Assembly (NCBI GenBank): GCA_020744425.1
Contig: JAGMUV010000001.1
Span: 4,402,001 to 4,466,000, forward strand
From: Dactylonectria macrodidyma
Lineage: Eukaryota > Ascomycota > Sordariomycetes > Hypocreales > Nectriaceae
Reading direction: 5' to 3'
DNA: 64,000 nucleotides
Within the stretch, counting starts at the first letter, position 1; every line of letters begins with the position of its first letter. Below are positions 15,696 to 30,670 of this stretch, piece by piece. The translations under genes were made by a program, and so were the position numbers. The notes beneath the pieces were generated by a model. That model saw only the letters and a list, made by a program, of their open reading frames with translations, was not told the origin of the DNA and searched no databases.

Positions 15696-15881
15696 GCTTT
15701 TTATCTAACAGAGGGCTTGCAGCGGCTCTTATATATAAAGGTGCCCTCATCATCATAGGAACTAAAATAAGGTTTTTCTTAAGACCGGACCCAAGAGATC
15801 CGGGTCTTCGAGACCGGGCCGCAGTCTCAATAGCTGACAGATGTAGCATAGGGCTTTCCTAGCATACCTGTTCCATCTGAC

Positions 15882-17636
15882 ATGGCAATGCCCAACATGG
15901 ATCCAGCCCAGCGTCAAGGCGAAATTGGGGCACAGCGCCAGGTATATCAACCACTGAGTCCTCGGCAGACAAGAGTTCTTCGAGTTCATTCTTCGACCGA
16001 CTCCAATGTCGAGATTGAATGCGACCTGTTCACGGTAGACCTCAAGAAGAAATCAGGCGCAACAGTTGCGGGAAGCTCCAAGAAGGCCGGGTACGATGCA
16101 TTGTCGTACACGTGGGGGGATCCCGAGCCAACCAAGAGAATCTTGGTAAATGGACTACCGTTCTGGATCTCTGCAAATCTCTTCGCGGCGTCAAGACATC
16201 TTCGGCTCCCGGGACGACCTCGAGTGTTGTGGATAGATGCTATCTGCATCAATCAAAACGACCTAATTAAGAAAGCAGGCCAGGTGGGGATGATGTTCAG
16301 CATCTATCTCAAGGCGTACAGGGTCGTTGTCTGGCTGGGTCAAGCGACTAATGATGACGAATATCTCTTCAGCCTGCTCAAGACCTGCGGCACAGAGGGT
16401 ATGCGTGGCATTCGTGGAGAGGTCGAGGGCCCAAGAGCACGCAAAGCAGCGACCGAGCTCATCGAGATCAAGCCATGGTTCCAGCGGACTTGGACCCGGC
16501 AAGAGGTACATGCGGCTCACGAAGTCCACGTGATCTGTGGAAGTCAGGAATGTTCTTTCGAAGACTTTCAGTTTGTCATGGATCGCCTGCTTCCAGACAT
16601 GGATGAGATTCGGGATACGTTTAAACCCCATCGCGACCCTCGGGAACGAGCCTTGAGCGCGAGGAGAGCATACGTCTTCTTCAAACAGCATTGCGAGAGC
16701 GACATGTACACTGAGGGCGGCGGATTTCATCAAGCCTGGTTCAGGATGATTATGCGAAGCAGTCTATATGAAGCGACTTTACCACAGGACAAGGTCTTTG
16801 CTGTCCTCGGAATCATTGCAGAGATGACCAAGGAGGCCTACGACGTTACAGAAGGGTTTCCGGAGATTGATTACTCAAAATCGGTTTCGGCAGTATTCGA
16901 AAGCTTCCAGAAGCACACAATCAACATCAGCCAGACTCTTGCCAGTCTCCAGATCTTCTACGACAGAGACGCCATCGGACAGGACCTGCCATCCTGGGCT
17001 ATCGATCTGCGCCAAAACGTTACCTGCTTGATGCTTCGATTCGGCATATTCCACTTTGACATGCCCTATACGGCGCCTCCAGTGCAGGCATATGACGAAG
17101 ATAGGCTTTTGCGTCTCGAGGGAGTACGGATTGGAGTTATAGCCTCGACAGAGAGTCCATGGAAAGGCGGAATGCACCGGGAGTTCAACTCCGAGATTTT
17201 GGGATCTTACTCTTCAGGGGTAGGACTGGAGAGCTGCTATTCGAGCCATGACTGCTGGATGCCCGATAATCAGGGCAACAAAGGCATCGAAGAGGTATAC
17301 AAGATTCTTGAGAAGCGCTGCTCGTACAATTGGGCAGCCTTGGAACCCAGGAACAACAATGTCATCGAAGAGTACAATCTAACTCGACATCGCTGCGTAG
17401 TATTTGTGTCGCATCTGGTGCGAGAGGGAGATATCATGATTCATCCGTCTGGTGCCGAGATGCCTTTCATCTTGCGGCCGGATAAAGAAGCAGGACGCTT
17501 CAGCTTTCTAGGTCCAGCTATCATCGCGATGGGAGTGGTGAGGAAACTAAAGGACAGGGATATGTTCACATATGCTTTTCCTCGCCGTGGAAGTGGCTAC
17601 GGTGTCAACTCGCCCGAGAGCTTTGTGCTTATCTAA
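15882..17636 (+). CDS. HET-domain protein (heterokaryon incompatibility type)
   Basis: Intact intronless protein of 584 residues with an N-terminal HET domain, the TIR-related module that triggers cell death when fungal non-self is recognised. Conserved blocks are YDALSYTWGD at 71-80, VLWIDAICINQND at about 115-127, VVVWLGQA at about 150 and PWFQRTW near 197, followed by the usual R-E-V stretch. After the HET domain come about 380 residues typical of these proteins but without a named effector domain, WD repeats or ankyrins. A family repeat lies just upstream and a second HET gene at 22.5 kb. Function in incompatibility is inferred from the domain, not proven. Confidence 0.93.
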   Translation: MAMPNMDPAQRQGEIGAQRQVYQPLSPRQTRVLRVHSSTDSNVEIECDLFTVDLKKKSGATVAGSSKKAGYDALSYTWGDPEPTKRILVNGLPFWISANLFAASRHLRLPGRPRVLWIDAICINQNDLIKKAGQVGMMFSIYLKAYRVVVWLGQATNDDEYLFSLLKTCGTEGMRGIRGEVEGPRARKAATELIEIKPWFQRTWTRQEVHAAHEVHVICGSQECSFEDFQFVMDRLLPDMDEIRDTFKPHRDPRERALSARRAYVFFKQHCESDMYTEGGGFHQAWFRMIMRSSLYEATLPQDKVFAVLGIIAEMTKEAYDVTEGFPEIDYSKSVSAVFESFQKHTINISQTLASLQIFYDRDAIGQDLPSWAIDLRQNVTCLMLRFGIFHFDMPYTAPPVQAYDEDRLLRLEGVRIGVIASTESPWKGGMHREFNSEILGSYSSGVGLESCYSSHDCWMPDNQGNKGIEEVYKILEKRCSYNWAALEPRNNNVIEEYNLTRHRCVVFVSHLVREGDIMIHPSGAEMPFILRPDKEAGRFSFLGPAIIAMGVVRKLKDRDMFTYAFPRRGSGYGVNSPESFVLI

Positions 17637-22330: not shown

Positions 22331-22546
22331 CCCTGAGAAACGAAAAGACGGAGGACTCATTGGCCCTCTTGCCCTCCTCGACGCCACGGGGCCGGGGGAC
22401 CAGTGGCGGCTGAGTGTTAGGCACCCATCCGGCGCTCAGGTGAGGGAAAGCCCCTCTCCCCTCATCCTCAATAATCAGTTTTAAAGACGCCTTCGCTTTC
22501 TAATATTCATTACTTTGTGAAACTCTTGACACTTTTACGTTTTACC

Positions 22547-25085
22547 ATGCCTCTATACACCCCTTTGCTAGAGGGCAGTGTGCGGTTACTCCGGATTCTT
22601 CCGCATCCAGATAAACATTCTAGCATAAAATGTCATCTTTTTACCTGCACTCTATTAGACTCAGGAAGCACCCATCCTTACGAGGCCTTATCGTACGTAT
22701 GGGGATCTGAGAAGAACCAACAGTCTATTTCTATAAACAACTGTGAACTGTCCGTCAGGGCAAACCTTCACGCAGCGTTATCACACCTTCGAGATCGATT
22801 TATAGAACGGATCATATGGATAGATGCTATTTGCATTAACCAAGAAGACAACGACGAAAAGGGACAGCAGGTTCAGTCTATGGCGAAGATCTATGCTAAA
22901 GCAAGTCGCGTAATTGTTTGGCTTGGAGAGGCGGCAGGCAATAGCGATCAAGTGCTCGAAGCAATACGCAAGGCTGCCGAAGAGCAGGACATGAATTCCG
23001 CGATCGACAAAACGAACCAGCAATCGATCCTCGCACTGCTAGAACGGCCATGGTTTCAGCGCATCTGGGTAAGCGTGCAGACGTTAAGTAATGTTAGCAG
23101 GAGAGTTATTAATAACATTGATTCAGGTCCTTCAGGAGGTTGCCGCAGCTCGACACATCCTGATCAAGTGTGGTCCTATGGAAATCGACGGATATGCGTT
23201 CTGCTCAGGCCTAAGCGCATTGAAGATATCATATGAAACATGCCCAGACTTACAGGGTCTGATCCATCCAGTCGTCTACCTTATAAGAGGCGCAGTCTTC
23301 CGGCCTAGACACGAAAGATACGAAACCAGTCGGCCAGGCAGGTTTTCCCTAGGGATACGCCCTCTGGGTGAGCTGGTGGATATGTACCACACCCGCGAGG
23401 CTACCGACCGCCGCGACAAGGTCTATGCCTTGCTTGGCCTGAGCTTGGATGATCCCAGCGCGGCAGGGCTATCGGCCAATTATAACAGTCCATGGAAAGA
23501 AGTCTTCCAGAAATTTGTCAAATTCTCACTTTCTGATAAAATATCCGTGGGGACTTGGGACGGTAAAGAGGTGGCAATAGTTGAAGGCAAGGCCCGTGTC
23601 CTCGGCGAAATATCCTCAGTCAAACCGGACATTACTCAGGATGACAGACAGAGCGTGGAGATTACTTGGAAAAATGCGCCTAACCCCTTCGGCATAAAGG
23701 GGAATAAGAGCTCTCGCTTCACCTTCCAGGCCTTAGCGAAACCCATCCAGGTAGGGGATGCCGTATGTCTTCTACAAGGAGCATCGAAGCCTACAATCTT
23801 CAGGCTATGCAATAATCATTCGGCTGTTATAACGATTACAGCTCCCCTTACAAACGGTTTTAAGTGGCCAGAACCTTCACAATCGATCACAACATTTCCA
23901 AATGATTTACTGCTCGTCTGGGACTGGAATGTATCTCGAGGCAAGTCGCAAGATGGAGAAGACTACGAATACTTAATGAGTAGTCGAAGGGTGCCCGAAT
24001 ACTCAAGGACAGAGTTGCAAGATGATCTGGACAAAGCGATCAGATTATGGAATTTTGGAGTGTTACTACATGAAATGGAAAGATATGAAGAGGCAGGAAA
24101 GAATTTCCAAAAGGCCATGGAGGTTTACGAGACGGTATTGAGAAGCATGGACAACACTAAAAAGGCGGATGTGCAGGCAATGGCTGATCTGCTCATCGAA
24201 GACAGGGGCGGATACGTGCCACTGCCTTTCGCGGCACGGATCGGGCATAAGGCAATCGTCAAGCAGTTGCTTGCCACCGGCAGAGTCGATCCAGACTCCA
24301 AGGATACGGAAGGCGGGACGCCGCTGTCGCATGCCGCCAGGAGCGGGCAAGAGGCCATTGTGCGGCTGCTGCTCGAGAAAGGCGCCAATGTCGACGTGAA
24401 AGATGCAGATAAGCAGACGCCATTGACATATGCCGCCTGGAGCGGGCACGAGGCCATTGTGTGGCTGCTGCTCGAGAAGGGCGCCAATGTCGAGGCGAAA
24501 GATGGGTCTTGCCAGACGCCGCTGTCGCTTGCCGCCGAGAGCGGGCACGAGGCCGTTATGCGGCTGCTGCTTGAGAAGGGCGCCAATGTCGAGGCGAAAG
24601 ATGGGTCTTACCGGACGCCGTTATCATATGCCGCTAAGAGCGGGCATGAGGCCGTTGTGCAGCTGCTGCTTGAGAAGGGCGCTAATATTGAGGTAAAAGA
24701 TGGGTCTTGGCAGACGCCGCTATTACATGCCGCCAGGAGCGGGCATGAGGCCATTGTACGGCTGCTGCTTGAGAAGGGCGCTAATATCGAGGCAAAAGAT
24801 GGGTATTACCGGACGTCGCTATCATATGCTATAAGGAGCGGGCATGAGGCCATTGTACGGCTGCTGCTTGAGAAGGGCGCTAATATCGAGGCGAAAGATG
24901 GGTCTTGGCAGACGCCGCTATTACATGCTGCCAGGAGCGGGCATGAGGCCATTGTACGGCTGCTGCTTGAGAAGGGCGCTAATATTGAAGCGAAAGATGT
25001 GTATTACCGGACGTCGCTGTCATATGCTATAAGGAGCGGGCATGAGGCCGTTGTGCAGCTGCTGCGTGAGAAGGGCGCTTGTTAA
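22547..25085 (+). CDS. HET-domain protein with TPR-like linker and nine ankyrin repeats
   Basis: NLR-like architecture: a HET effector at the front and a repeat sensor at the back, 826 residues. Exon 1 is 22547-23068, exon 2 is 23127-25085, with a 58-nt intron that restores PWFQRIW then VLQEVA. HET blocks are YEALSYVWGS, IIWIDAICINQED and VIVWLGEA. A TPR-like helix pair (AIRLWNFGVLLHEMERYEEA) follows. Nine 33-residue ankyrin units run from about residue 545 to the end. Units 2-9 are nearly identical, and units 6-7 and 8-9 are two copies of one 198-nt block. Start 22547 (MPLYTPLLEG) matches family starts. Repeat-like DNA continues beyond the stop in a broken frame, so the array was once longer. 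A role in non-self recognition is inferred. Confidence 0.92.
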
Positions 25086-26493: not shown

Positions 26494-29400
26494 ATGGACC
26501 CACTGAGCGCGATCGCATCCGTTGCGGGGATCGCCACCGCTGCAGGTGAGGTTGCCAAAATCCTCGGTCTGTATATAACGGCAGCGAAAGACGCACCCAA
26601 GATCGCGGCTCAACTCTCCTCGGAGGTTCTTGCGACGCAGACTATCCTCTCTGCCCTAGAGCAACTCGCTAGCAACATCTCCACCAGAAATGTAAAATAT
26701 GCGTCCCTAATCCAGGTCGATCAACTCATCGCTGTGCTTACCGATGGTGTCCTGATATTTTCCGAGCTCGAGGCAGTGTTGCAGACACTCCCACCGCCCG
26801 AACCCATAAGCCCGCGTGGGCGTTTATGGTTGTCAATGCAATGGGTTAGAAAGAACAGTTCTTTAACTGCTATATTTACCAGGCTACAGGCATTTAAGTT
26901 GTCTATCAACTGCATTCTGAGCATTCTCCAGAGGTATGTTGTCCACTATTTGCATTCCGTTGAGGTTTATATGTATCCAACTGGAGACAAAAAGCGATTC
27001 CCAAGTCAGAGCAGAAAACAACCAGCAGCAGTTGATGTCAACCGTGGAAATGCTCCTAGAACGCAACCATGATCTATCTGAGAGAATGATGGGCATAGAG
27101 AGCGCTTTCGATACAATATCGCAGCACCAAGCAACATTCCAATTTACAGCTGGTATTGACAGTCTGGCGCCGCATACTGCATCACCAAAACGCTCCTCTC
27201 TCGTCGAGTTTGAGTTTGAGCGTTACCTCAAAGCCTCTCGTGTTTACCGCCGAGCCAAGAGAGATACCATGGACTTTTCAGTACGCAGTTCTGTGGCCCG
27301 CACTCACGCGTGGTCTGTTTTCTCCGGAATCAGTCTCAGCAACATCTCTGAGATCTCCGTTCTAGCTCTCCCATTATACGCAGAGGACATTGCCAATCCA
27401 CAGCATTATAATTTTGGACACAAAACTATTCAGCCTAAACCGTTGTTTTCCCAACCTATTTACACGAGATCTATCTACCATGAGTGTGTTGAAGCGCAAC
27501 TTCAGCTGTCTCAGTTTGAATGGTTTGCTGAACTCCACCGGCAAGAAACTCAAAGGGGAACCGATGACCAAACCCCGCTATCAATTCTTATCGCCATATT
27601 TAGGCACGGGACTCCTCTGTTGATGTTATTTAATCAACTCGACAACTCACAACACGAGAGATGGGATAGTTTAATCGCTTCGAGTCCATCTGAATCAGTT
27701 GCAAAGCTTGCGATGGTCGAATTCGTTCAGGCTTGCGTAAGCCGCTTGAGTTTCCAGCCAGCTGACTGCTTTACTGTAGCTGATCTCATGAGCATTGACA
27801 CAACAAACCACATTAAGGTAAAACAATAGCCTTGAGCCTCGTACAATGCCCCGGTAACTTATGAATAATTAGGTTATCCGGCTAGTGCGGCTGCTTCTGG
27901 CGAGGCTCGCTAAGGCCGGTTTGATTCAAACCGTTCTCTTCGAATCTACCCCCCAGATCTCCACGGCAGAACCAAGTCCTGCAGGACTGGCTGTGGACGA
28001 ATTCCTCCGCGATGAGCGACTCTACCTCACACGTCTAGAGATCCTCCTCGAAACCTCCAAGCAGATCATATCTTATGGCACGCTCCCCGTTAACACAGTC
28101 AAACAAATGTTTGCTCCAGTTGGTCCGTTGGTCGATGTTCAAAGAAAATTCTTGATAAAGGCAGAGATGTTGGTTCGGAAGCCATACTTGCGCCAAACCT
28201 GGCTCTCGGTTTTTCAGGAATGGTCACAGCAGTCATCCGGCTATTATGCGGCTCTTATCACTGCAGAGAAAGAATCAAAATCAACGCTCAGAACTGCGCT
28301 ATCATCCGTGGAGAATCATGACGAGCGCCGGGCAGTATTAGACGATGCGCTGGCAGTTTTAGGGCTCCCCTCCCAACAACTCGAGAAATACGAGGCCTTC
28401 TTACTGGTATGGACACAGATCTGACTTGCATACGAAACTAACCCTTTCCAGGAGCTCTCTCAACATGGACTCCATGAATCCAGAGACATCAAATCAGCAA
28501 AGGAGAGCCTGCAATGGGTCAAAGAGACTGTCGATATTGCCATCGCTACCCAGGAACTCCATAAGGCTAAAGCCGCCTTGTCTAAAGACCTGGATGATGA
28601 AGGAAAGAAAGCCGTTTGGGGACTCGGAGAACTCTTGATGTTTGACAATGTTGATATCCAAGACCCTATAGGTGGTCCAGTAGTAAAGGTATCTTGCTAC
28701 TCTCCTTATGGAACCTAGTTGTTATTCCACTAAATTTCTAAACATATCAGACCCAGTTATATCTCTACCGGAAAGGGTTATTGCGAGCAACAGAAGCGTA
28801 CCCAAAGAGTCTACGAAGAGGGTTTCTAAGACATAGGACACCGTTACCACAGGATCGTCTGAGGCCGCAGCTATGCATAGTCCAAATCATTCATGCAAAG
28901 GATATCCAACAAGTACTCCCATCGTCTAGACAAGGTACAGATGAGTTACCCTGAAAGTTTATGGATTGAATTAACGGTTCATAGAGTTGCCAGGCTGTGA
29001 AATTATGTGGCGGACCAGTTACAACGAAAGCTGCCTCTTCTTTGGTCTCGGCTCTGAGGCACGGATTGACGAATGGAGAAAGGAGCTGAAAAGAATTCAA
29101 GGCCAAGCTCGACCCGTTAAGCCTTCCTCCAAGTTCCCAAGAGAATACAAATTGGCCGTGGTGGGAGGAGGCGGGACTGGAACAGGTTGTCTCATTACTA
29201 AGGCAAGCATCATACCCCGCGAGATTCTCAGTCTCAATCCTCGCCCAAACTGACAGTCCCTAAAGCTAATAGAATCGCATTTTGGCGATGAATACGATCC
29301 AACAATCGAGGACTCATATCGTAAACAATGCGTCATCGATGACGAAGTTGCTCTACTCGACGTGCTCGACACCGCTAACCAGGAGGAATACTCGGCCATG

Positions 29401-29754
29401 AGAGAGCAGTACATGAGAACGACGGAAGGCTTCCTACTGGTATACAGCATCACCAGTCGGCAAAGCTTCGAAGAAGTCACGACCTTCCAGCAGCAAATCC
29501 TCTGGGTGAAGGATAAAGATTTCTTCCCCATGGTCCTGGTTGGCAATAAATGCTCTCTGGAGTCAGCGAGAGAAGTGACAACACAGGAAGGTGTAGCCTT
29601 AGCAAGGTCTTTCGGATGCGGATTCGTCGAGGCAGATGCAGAATCCGGCATCAATGTCGATGAGTCATTTTTCGATTTGGTACGGGAGATTCGACGATGT
29701 GAGATGACCGGGCATGGATACGTATCACCGCCCATGCCGCGACTTAATGAATGA
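26494..29754 (+). CDS. Helo-like / Cdc24-like (CH-DH-PH) / Ras pseudo-GTPase fusion protein
   Basis: Seven exons: 26494-26933, 26995-27817, 27873-28406, 28452-28688, 28751-28934, 28985-29202 and 29266-29754. The product is 974 residues. Residues 1-150 are a Helo-like domain of the STAND-protein N-terminal type ([20 protein letters not shown], then [18 protein letters not shown]). About 339-440 is a Cdc24-type calponin-like domain ([20 protein letters not shown]). About 456-655 is a DH (RhoGEF) domain, and about 660-780 a PH domain ending [20 protein letters not shown]. That same exon reads straight into a Ras domain ([12 protein letters not shown]). The Ras part keeps the effector loop [11 protein letters not shown], but the P-loop reads [13 protein letters not shown] is DTANQ, NKCD is NKCS, and the SAK box is DAE. 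There is no CAAX box. The sixth intron is GC-AG. Likely a signalling or recognition protein with a non-binding Ras module. Confidence 0.9.
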
Positions 29755-29896
29755 CGCCGCCCAGCACGGATCACGTACTAGGGAAGTCGCCAACGGGAGA
29801 CCCTTGGCGAAGGCGAACGCAAAGCTGTTTCAGAGAAGCCGTCAATTGAAGCTATCGGCTATGTAGATCATTTCCCTGCTGAATCGTTCAGCTTCC

Positions 29897-30453
29897 CTAT
29901 CGGGGATAGATGTTCTGAGGCTCCTGCCGGTCTTTATCCCGTATTCTTGCCCTAATAACACCTTCTGCTTGTGTCGTGATAGCCGGGAGGTCAAAAGCAG
30001 CGTCGAACATAATCCTGTCAAGCCTTTTGACACGCGAGACGGCCACATACGACAACCCGTGCTGAAAATCCCTCTGTGATATGTCCGCAACCGCCCTTTC
30101 TAGCGTCATCTCTTGTGACTTATGTACCGTAATGCTGTAGGCCATAGTTAGGGCGAATTGAGTGCGGTTGCAGGGCGTGTTGACCTTGATAAAATCGCGA
30201 TTGGAACGGAATATAGGTACGACGGTCGATAGGGGGGGATCCTCGAAGAATGCTAGGCCTCGTACTTGTCAAACTTGACCAAGATAACGTAGGGATGTTC
30301 TTTGCGAGGGTCAGTCACATCAGCTCGCCAGGAGATGTCAAATACCTTGCCCAAGGCACCGTTGACGAGCCCAGTTGCGGTCCACAGGTTCTCAGTCAAC
30401 ATAACCCGGGTACCGATGCATAAGGGAAGCTTGTTGTGAAGGTCACTAGCCAT
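29897..30453 (-). pseudogene. Pif1-type helicase C-terminal relic (Helitron-like)
   Basis: Two pieces in order on the minus strand match the C-terminus of Pif1-like helicases, as carried by Helitrons. The first (30453-30253) reads LCIGTRVMLTENLWTATGLV then VNGALGKVFDISW. The second (about 30250-29897) reads TQFALTMAYSITVHKSQEMT and then GLSYVAVSRVKRLDRIMF. A frameshift near 30240-30254 separates them. No upstream Walker motifs or Rep domain are seen. It is a dead fragment, whether from a Helitron or a host Pif1-like copy. Confidence 0.75.
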
Positions 30454-30670
30454 CGTAGAGTCATATACCGGTTGGCAAGCGGGTGGTTCCGCCGCATCTT
30501 GAGCAGGCCATCCTCCTTGAATCTGGTACTCTTAACAATCTTCTAAGGCGCTTTAAACCAACCGGCCATCTCCTTTTGCTTATCTACACTCTTCCTGACA
30601 AGTCCTCTAAGAGAATGCTTAATATAAGTATAAGTATGTAAGTATATTTAATAACAGTATGTAATGTAGT

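Follow-up and report, generated by a model that had tools for sequence, protein, structure and literature searches.

The gene described here occupies positions 26494-29754 on the + strand of a 64,000-nucleotide stretch of the Dactylonectria macrodidyma genome (the window, located 4.4 Mb along contig C1 in a 77-Mb genome). Its seven exons encode one chain of 974 residues, in which a predicted helical bundle is followed by the CH, DH (Dbl-homology) and PH-like parts of a Cdc24-like exchange factor and by a Ras-like domain that is probably a pseudo-GTPase, no longer able to hold GTP. The N-terminal 325 residues are, judged from sequence comparison, a chassis common to proteins with different C-terminal modules, and the modules found behind it appear nearly all to belong to Ras-Cdc24-Cdc42 polarity signalling. 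We give close to an even chance to the explanation that we favour, in which the protein would be a death-linked decoy of this signalling pathway that works without an NLR core; its function is inferred.

A Ras domain without its guanine-reading residues

The Ras-like domain (residues 795-955; 29149-29694, across intron 6; this and all other features of the gene are on the + strand) has the Ras fold and is closest to RasA, the RasA exons of the same genome being 59-89% identical to it. The G1 (GxxxxGK[ST]), G4 ([NT]KxD) and G5 (SAK) motifs all fail in the window copy, where the equivalents of Ras Lys16, Ser17, Gly60, Asp119, Ser145 and Lys147 are Thr, Gly, Asn, Ser, Asp and Glu. The first two changes lie in a degraded P-loop (29182-29187), that of Gly60 at 29377-29379, that of Asp119, the guanine-reading residue of G4, at 29554-29556, and that of Ser145 in G5 at 29635-29637. 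Fifteen control Ras proteins kept all scored positions (15/15, with Ser or Thr at 17). By comparison, Asp119 and Ser145 are each kept in 0/23 family Ras rows, position 145 being Asp in 23/23; these rows are interrelated and contain near-duplicates (two are identical over this region and one is the model of a dead copy), so that they do not stand for 23 events. P0085 is not one of the 23 rows, although the chassis tree places it among the family; its residues 119 and 145 are Gly and Asn, and with it included the counts become 0/24 for Asp119 and 23/24 for Asp at 145. Across the family residue 119 may be Ser, Phe, Ile, Leu, Arg, Gly or Lys.

The P-loop tells a different story. Lys16 is kept in 6/23 family rows, or in 6/15 once the eight models lacking the P-loop stretch are set aside, and Lys16 and Ser17 are both kept in four rows. 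The loss of guanine reading is thus common to all rows examined and the loss of the P-loop does not, because a second copy of the gene in the same genome, on C21, retains GKS, the switch I threonine, DTAGQ and Asn116 in its Ras domain but has lost G4 and G5. The window protein ends in RLNE and has no prenylation box, RasA of the same genome ending in CVVM; nor was such a box recognised in the C-terminal letters of the family rows, some of which are incomplete at that end. The initial annotation of this gene had regarded the Ras and exchange-factor parts as working modules; in every family row examined guanine-reading residues of Ras are missing, and CR3 of the DH domain is changed.

Modules between the bundle and Ras

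A Pfam search of the 974-residue protein returned CDC24 (E 4e-17), RhoGEF (4e-9) and Ras (4e-48). The calponin-type CH domain of the Cdc24 kind (residues 341-430; 27575-27899, across intron 2) scored 62.6 bits with PF06395, and the DH domain (residues 462-626; 27993-28532, across intron 3) exceeded the cut-off of PF00621 with 37.4 bits. Aligned DH domains retain the CR1 Glu (CR1 to CR3 are the usual names of the DH motifs). CR3 is altered at the Lys that precedes Pro and in the PLLL stretch; its Pro, Gln and Lys-Tyr are conserved in most of the domains, the window protein included. Residues 660-781 (28632-29109, across introns 4 and 5) are modelled as a strand-rich, PH-like part with a C-terminal helix; Pfam reported no PH family for the window protein, and PF15411 in 10/35 aligned members. 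PB1 was likewise not reported by Pfam in the window protein and is present in the relatives P0116 and P0117. The Cdc24-like CH-DH-PH layout proposed earlier, with the PB1 end missing and Ras in its place, is supported. Among the matches listed for fold searches with the whole model Ras stood alone, the CH, DH and PH parts not having been searched separately.

The N-terminal part is less easily named. Exon 1 (26494-26933) encodes residues 1-146, a predicted helical bundle modelled with a pLDDT (predicted local distance difference test score) of 83.8. PF17111, the HeLo-like family now named PigL_N, scored 23.2 bits, short of its gathering score (27.2), and matched 9/35 aligned members at E 0.01; a wrong model of 969 residues scored 27.6 bits. 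The chassis relatives P0109 (27.3 bits), P0112 (39.5) and P0121 (29.4) passed the cut-off. The bundle model resembles MLKL and plant CC domains, unrelated bundles match it equally well, and the HeLo domain of HET-S was not among the fold matches listed. By sequence the Helo-like assignment is thus weak: of the five profiles proposed at the outset, CDC24, RhoGEF and Ras were recovered, the Helo-like one reached a sub-threshold score only, and PH was not found. Since no NB-ARC or NACHT domain appeared among the Pfam matches (to E 1 for the 969-residue model, to E 0.01 for 35 aligned members), the window protein, as far as these profiles tell, is not an NLR.

Between bundle and CH domain runs a linker (residues 191-305; 27125-27469) that was modelled with low confidence and contains the most conserved stretch of the alignment. 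All 17 invariant columns of alignment A1 (17/17) fall within residues 221-288 (window 27215-27418), and pLDDT is below 50 over residues 180-303; the best-conserved stretch of the chassis is therefore also one that is modelled with low confidence.

One chassis, many polarity modules

Residues 1-325, searched alone among proteins of 0.55-1.75 times 974 residues, gave 87 matches, and the first part of a Colletotrichum chassis protein used as query gave at least 21. Besides CH-DH-PH-Ras, the C-terminal ends comprise CH-DH-PH-PB1, which scores strongly in P0116 and P0117 from Oculimacula and Cadophora; PH_10, seen in Xylaria and elsewhere; a LIM pair in three proteins (P0105, P0109, P0111); Ras without CDC24 (P0037, P0106, P0108); a Rho-type GTPase, carried by the seven proteins P0128-P0134 of Fusarium; and, in one protein each, two SH3 domains and a RhoGAP. 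Sorted by hand, 101 chassis proteins included 83 with such a domain, 17 in which none was found and one with a HET domain in front, a sample weighted to the nearest relatives because the searches started from this family. P0092 shows a weak protein-kinase match besides. No arginine-finger pattern of the searched form was found in the RhoGAP module of P0121.

Several of these modules can be traced to their likely sources. The GTPase of P0130 has its best PDB matches in Cdc42, Rac and Rho1, the other six Rho-type proteins being placed beside it by similarity. An open reading frame on C34 of the D. macrodidyma genome matches the LIM pair of P0109 with 67% identity across 145 residues and overlaps a RhoGAP open reading frame on the same strand; the two frames are presumably one gene. 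In the same genome, the chassis gene at C18:155521-157410 carries a Rho-like GTPase, in which similar motif loss was read by eye. Another locus, C34:4209630-4210585, holds a chassis-like gene composed of bundle, linker and a short tail, with no known module in its open frames, and could be a partner.

Loss of the guanine-reading Asp extends to these relatives. None of the chassis Ras domains outside the 23 rows (0/4) has Asp119, and none of the Rho-type rows (0/7) has its equivalent, although the latter retain Lys16, Asp57 and Gly60. Ser145 is replaced by Asp in 2/4 of the outside Ras domains (P0108 has Ser and P0085 Asn) and in 7/7 Rho-type rows, and inspection by eye shows the same change in the C18 gene. 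An identical Ser-to-Asp change at G5 (position 145) thus occurs in two separately captured GTPase families.

How often such capture took place was considered with trees. In that of the Ras part all controls fall on one side of a single branch (88/93), and P0037, P0085, P0106 and P0108, which lie outside the family rows, form long branches. Many separate captures of Ras are not required by this topology; because a single capture of all chassis Ras fits it, we take two captures, one of Ras and one of Rho, as the safe count on these alignments. The chassis tree requires the architecture label to change 13 times across its 58 rows, and some of these changes stem from truncated models. Six Colletotrichum chassis proteins (P0114, P0115, P0118, P0119, P0122 and P0124) are named 'modin' by their source; MOD-A of Podospora anserina, a suppressor of incompatibility, was not among the matches listed, and no link of the 'modin' proteins to MOD-A is claimed.

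Gene model and conservation of the fusion

The coordinates, strand and exon number of the initial annotation are right, and the translation is identical to P0001, the deposited D. macrodidyma protein. Exon 2 (26995-27817) encodes the final chassis helices, the conserved linker and the beginning of the CH domain; exons 3 (27873-28406), 4 (28452-28688) and 5 (28751-28934) follow; exon 6 (28985-29202) joins the end of the PH part to the start of Ras, and exon 7 (29266-29754) completes the Ras domain and the C-terminus. Introns measure 45-63 bases, intron 1 being 61 bases long; intron 6 is of the GC-AG type, and the acceptor reads AAG in introns 1 and 6. Models of 969 and 972 residues, both wrong at intron 1 and the latter also at intron 6, were dropped, both introns being fixed by the deposited protein and by the SDSQxRAE stretch of relatives.

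That the fusion is an artefact of gene prediction was considered and rejected, because the PH-Ras junction lies inside a single exon, as had been pointed out from the sequence, because the junction is repeated in the C21 copy, and because full-length relatives are known from two orders. The C21 copy has an identical seven-exon layout with a GC donor at the matching site. At E 1e-3 at least 84 proteins match the window protein; Ras-bearing relatives aligned across 98% or more of the query are present in Fusarium and Sordariales (Lasiosphaeris, Schizothecium, Podospora didyma and Podospora conica), with 43-65% identity. On this distribution the fusion is old. The proteins of two F. oxysporum strains are 68% identical to each other. 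Among the matches listed, those with names are all from filamentous ascomycetes, lone-Ras matches excepted, and public databases label such sequences 'ras family-domain-containing protein' and similar. The deposited model of P0006 lacks Ras although its locus encodes it; some models without Ras are accordingly truncated. What had been taken for a single odd gene is thus a real fusion, but one that belongs to a chassis family with recurrent polarity modules.

Two further kinds of architecture were encountered among the relatives. The model of P0012 (Fusarium sp. NRRL 52700) has 1660 amino acids and includes a peptidase S8 domain (PF00082); it may be a true fusion or may join two genes in one model. 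P0048, P0050 and P0070, which include Hyaloscypha and of which P0070 stands for 27 member sequences, have an N-terminal Ras followed by a HET domain, the Ras motifs of P0048 and P0050 being intact; this is a separate joining of Ras to an incompatibility domain.

Copies within the genome and selection

Four copies were found in the D. macrodidyma genome: those of the window, C21, C22 and C76. The C21 copy is open across all aligned codons, that on C22 is rearranged with pieces on both strands, and that on C76 has 17 stop codons in the aligned frame. A surplus of C-to-T changes before A and of G-to-A changes after T gives the C76 copy the signature that repeat-induced point mutation (RIP) leaves, which suggests that it was mutated in this way. 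The segment duplicated on C76 and C22 takes in flanking DNA, from about 26030 to about 30365. A helicase-like fragment, Pif1-like by eye, lies on the minus strand at 29897-30531, inside and beyond the duplicated segment, and the stretch from about 29776 to 30350 is also copied on C20, where the gene itself gave no listed match.

Between the window and C21 copies the ratio of nonsynonymous to synonymous divergence (dN/dS) is 0.41 overall (bootstrap 0.33-0.51) at a dS of 0.33. The DH part stands at 0.33, and the Ras part has the lowest value (0.23; 0.14-0.36), the intervals of the parts overlapping. These figures indicate that the Ras part is under purifying selection despite its motif loss. The genome has a separate Cdc24, which scored 105 bits for CDC24 and 94.9 bits for RhoGEF on fragments.

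HET genes in the neighbourhood

Upstream of the gene, two overlapping open reading frames (22475-25085, +), which end 1.4 kb before it, encode a HET domain and then ankyrin repeats, with a weak TPR match; a second HET-domain open reading frame lies at 15852-17636 (+). By eye the ankyrin repeats at 23088-25085 are near-identical, as in fast-changing incompatibility genes. The chassis gene on C18 has a HET domain 1.6 kb away in divergent orientation (HET place C18:159042). A HET domain lies within 5 kb at 2/16 chassis loci against 0.3 expected (p 0.04, post hoc; the 150 listed HET places used make this a lower bound). The HET adjacency of chassis loci is thus weak.

A proposed decoy of polarity signalling and rival explanations

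Under the decoy explanation, one chain would combine sensor and killer and watch over the Ras-Cdc24-Cdc42 polarity module. The dead Ras and the worn DH domain would no longer signal while retaining the surfaces seen by partners or foreign effectors, and would serve as bait or receive the state of the real Ras-Cdc24 pair. At rest these worn modules might restrain the helical bundle, much as the pseudokinase acts on the four-helix bundle in MLKL. Once the bait is bound, modified or mismatched, be it through an attacker or through alleles that fail to match when hyphae fuse, the freed bundle would assemble at the membrane and kill or arrest the compartment. In relatives, the degraded Rho-type GTPase, the lone Ras, the RhoGAP-type LIM pair, the SH3 domains and the RhoGAP would then serve as alternative baits from the same pathway. 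As in integrated decoys, the domains look captured from host genes, Ras being near RasA and CH-DH like Cdc24, and the same is seen in relatives for the Rho-type GTPase and the RhoGAP-type LIM. According to the accessible part of one study, Ras1 binds the Cdc24 orthologue Scd1 directly (PMC7002011), and PB1 has thus given way to Ras in a type of protein to which Ras itself binds. The guard or decoy idea of the initial annotation survives in a more specific form, as a pseudo-GTPase within a chassis family of polarity modules; its premise of working modules has become less likely.

The main rival, possible but in our opinion unlikely, is that the protein simply regulates polarity, has the pseudo-GTPase as an integral part and plays no immune role: the bundle would anchor it to a membrane or scaffold, DH-PH would bind Cdc42 or Rho, and the dead Ras would regulate, tuning hyphal growth or fusion. 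Nearly every module on the chassis does come from polarity or small-GTPase signalling, and the DH domain, with its CR1 Glu kept and a dN/dS of 0.33, could still be in use; a precedent is offered by p190RhoGAP, in which deletion of the pseudoGTPase domains lowers RhoGAP activity (PMC5593906, accessible part). Such a regulator is harder to reconcile with copies that are gained, broken and RIP-mutated, with the altered CR3, with named matches confined, in the lists obtained and apart from lone Ras, to filamentous ascomycetes, and with a Cdc24 encoded separately in the genome. A determinant of allorecognition (heterokaryon incompatibility), which we rate as improbable, would read strain differences in the captured modules at hyphal fusion and respond with death, defence against parasites being secondary; it overlaps with the decoy explanation and differs from it in the trigger. 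HET open reading frames beside the window gene and near its C18 relative, the 68% identity between the proteins of two F. oxysporum strains and the turnover of copy number within one genome speak for it, but HET adjacency concerns no more than 2/16 loci and the strain divergence is explicable by paralogy.

Two further readings bear on the Ras domain and on the gene as a whole. With Asp119 lost and Ser145 changed to Asp, the carboxylate would face the base from the opposite side; the Ras domain might then be re-tuned and not dead, and members with an intact P-loop, such as C21, might bind another nucleotide or bind without choice of base. The motifs that C21 preserves despite its G4 and G5 changes, and the recurrence of the same G5 substitution in the family Ras (23/23), the Rho-type rows (7/7) and, by eye, C18, fit this proposal; residue 119 is nevertheless free to vary, the window copy lacks Lys16 and Ser17, and P0108 keeps Ser145 where P0085 has Asn, and we see only a slim prospect for it. 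Slimmer still is that of a decaying gene without function, a disfavoured reading to which the destruction of one copy and the breakage of another by rearrangement lend some colour, and against which stand the open window and C21 copies and their dN/dS of 0.41 (0.33-0.51) at a dS of 0.33.

Returning to the decoy explanation, we tentatively propose, with rather less than even confidence, that filamentous ascomycetes possess an NLR-free immune class in which one death-type chassis carries parts captured from one and the same pathway (Ras, Cdc24, Cdc42/Rho, RhoGAP LIM, perhaps SH3 and RhoGAP) with the GTPases switched off. Two or more GTPase families, Ras and Rho among them, would have been captured separately, both without the guanine-reading Asp and mostly with the same Ser-to-Asp change at G5. 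If true, a fungal cell could sense that its polarity machinery is attacked or mismatched. The recurrence of inactivated parts from one essential pathway would identify Ras-Cdc24-Cdc42 as a target that fungi guard outside NLRs and would offer a route to its attackers. The design would be MLKL-like, with a pseudo-GTPase instead of a pseudokinase, and the C21 copy with its P-loop and the window copy without one make the nucleotide question testable.

Comparison with known systems

Among the papers listed by the literature searches, none described this architecture. The protein shares with Cdc24/Scd1, the Cdc42 exchange factor, the order of CH, DH and PH, and departs from it in that Ras replaces PB1, CR3 is changed and the RhoGEF score is 37.4 bits, where a fragment of the separately encoded Cdc24 reaches 94.9. 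With RasA-type Ras it has the fold and most of the core in common; G4, G5 and, in the window copy, G1 and Gly60 are changed, the CaaX end is missing and the introns lie at other positions.

p190RhoGAP, a protein of animal origin, has to our knowledge no death-type bundle. It resembles the window protein as a Rho-pathway protein with a pseudo-GTPase within it (PMC5593906), but is a RhoGAP, whereas the window protein has a RhoGEF. NLRs with integrated decoys are alike in fusing a domain of a host pathway to an immune-type N-terminus and unlike in that no NACHT, NB-ARC or repeat domain was reported for the window protein. Integrated decoys are known in plant NLRs and were proposed in a 2025 survey of Sordariales NLRs, the accessible main text of which contains no mention of Ras, Cdc24 or GTPase (PMC12258605); proteins without NACHT or NB-ARC would presumably fall outside the scope of such a survey.

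There is also a parallel in design with the HeLo/HELL death domains of fungi and with MLKL, whose link and membrane role are described in the accessible part of PMC12881547. The window protein has no pseudokinase, and its PF17111 match lies below the curated score. It nevertheless shares with both a predicted N-terminal helical bundle, with a fold match of the model to MLKL among others, and with MLKL the joining of an executioner-type bundle to a pseudo-enzyme, a pseudokinase in the one and a putative pseudo-GTPase in the other.

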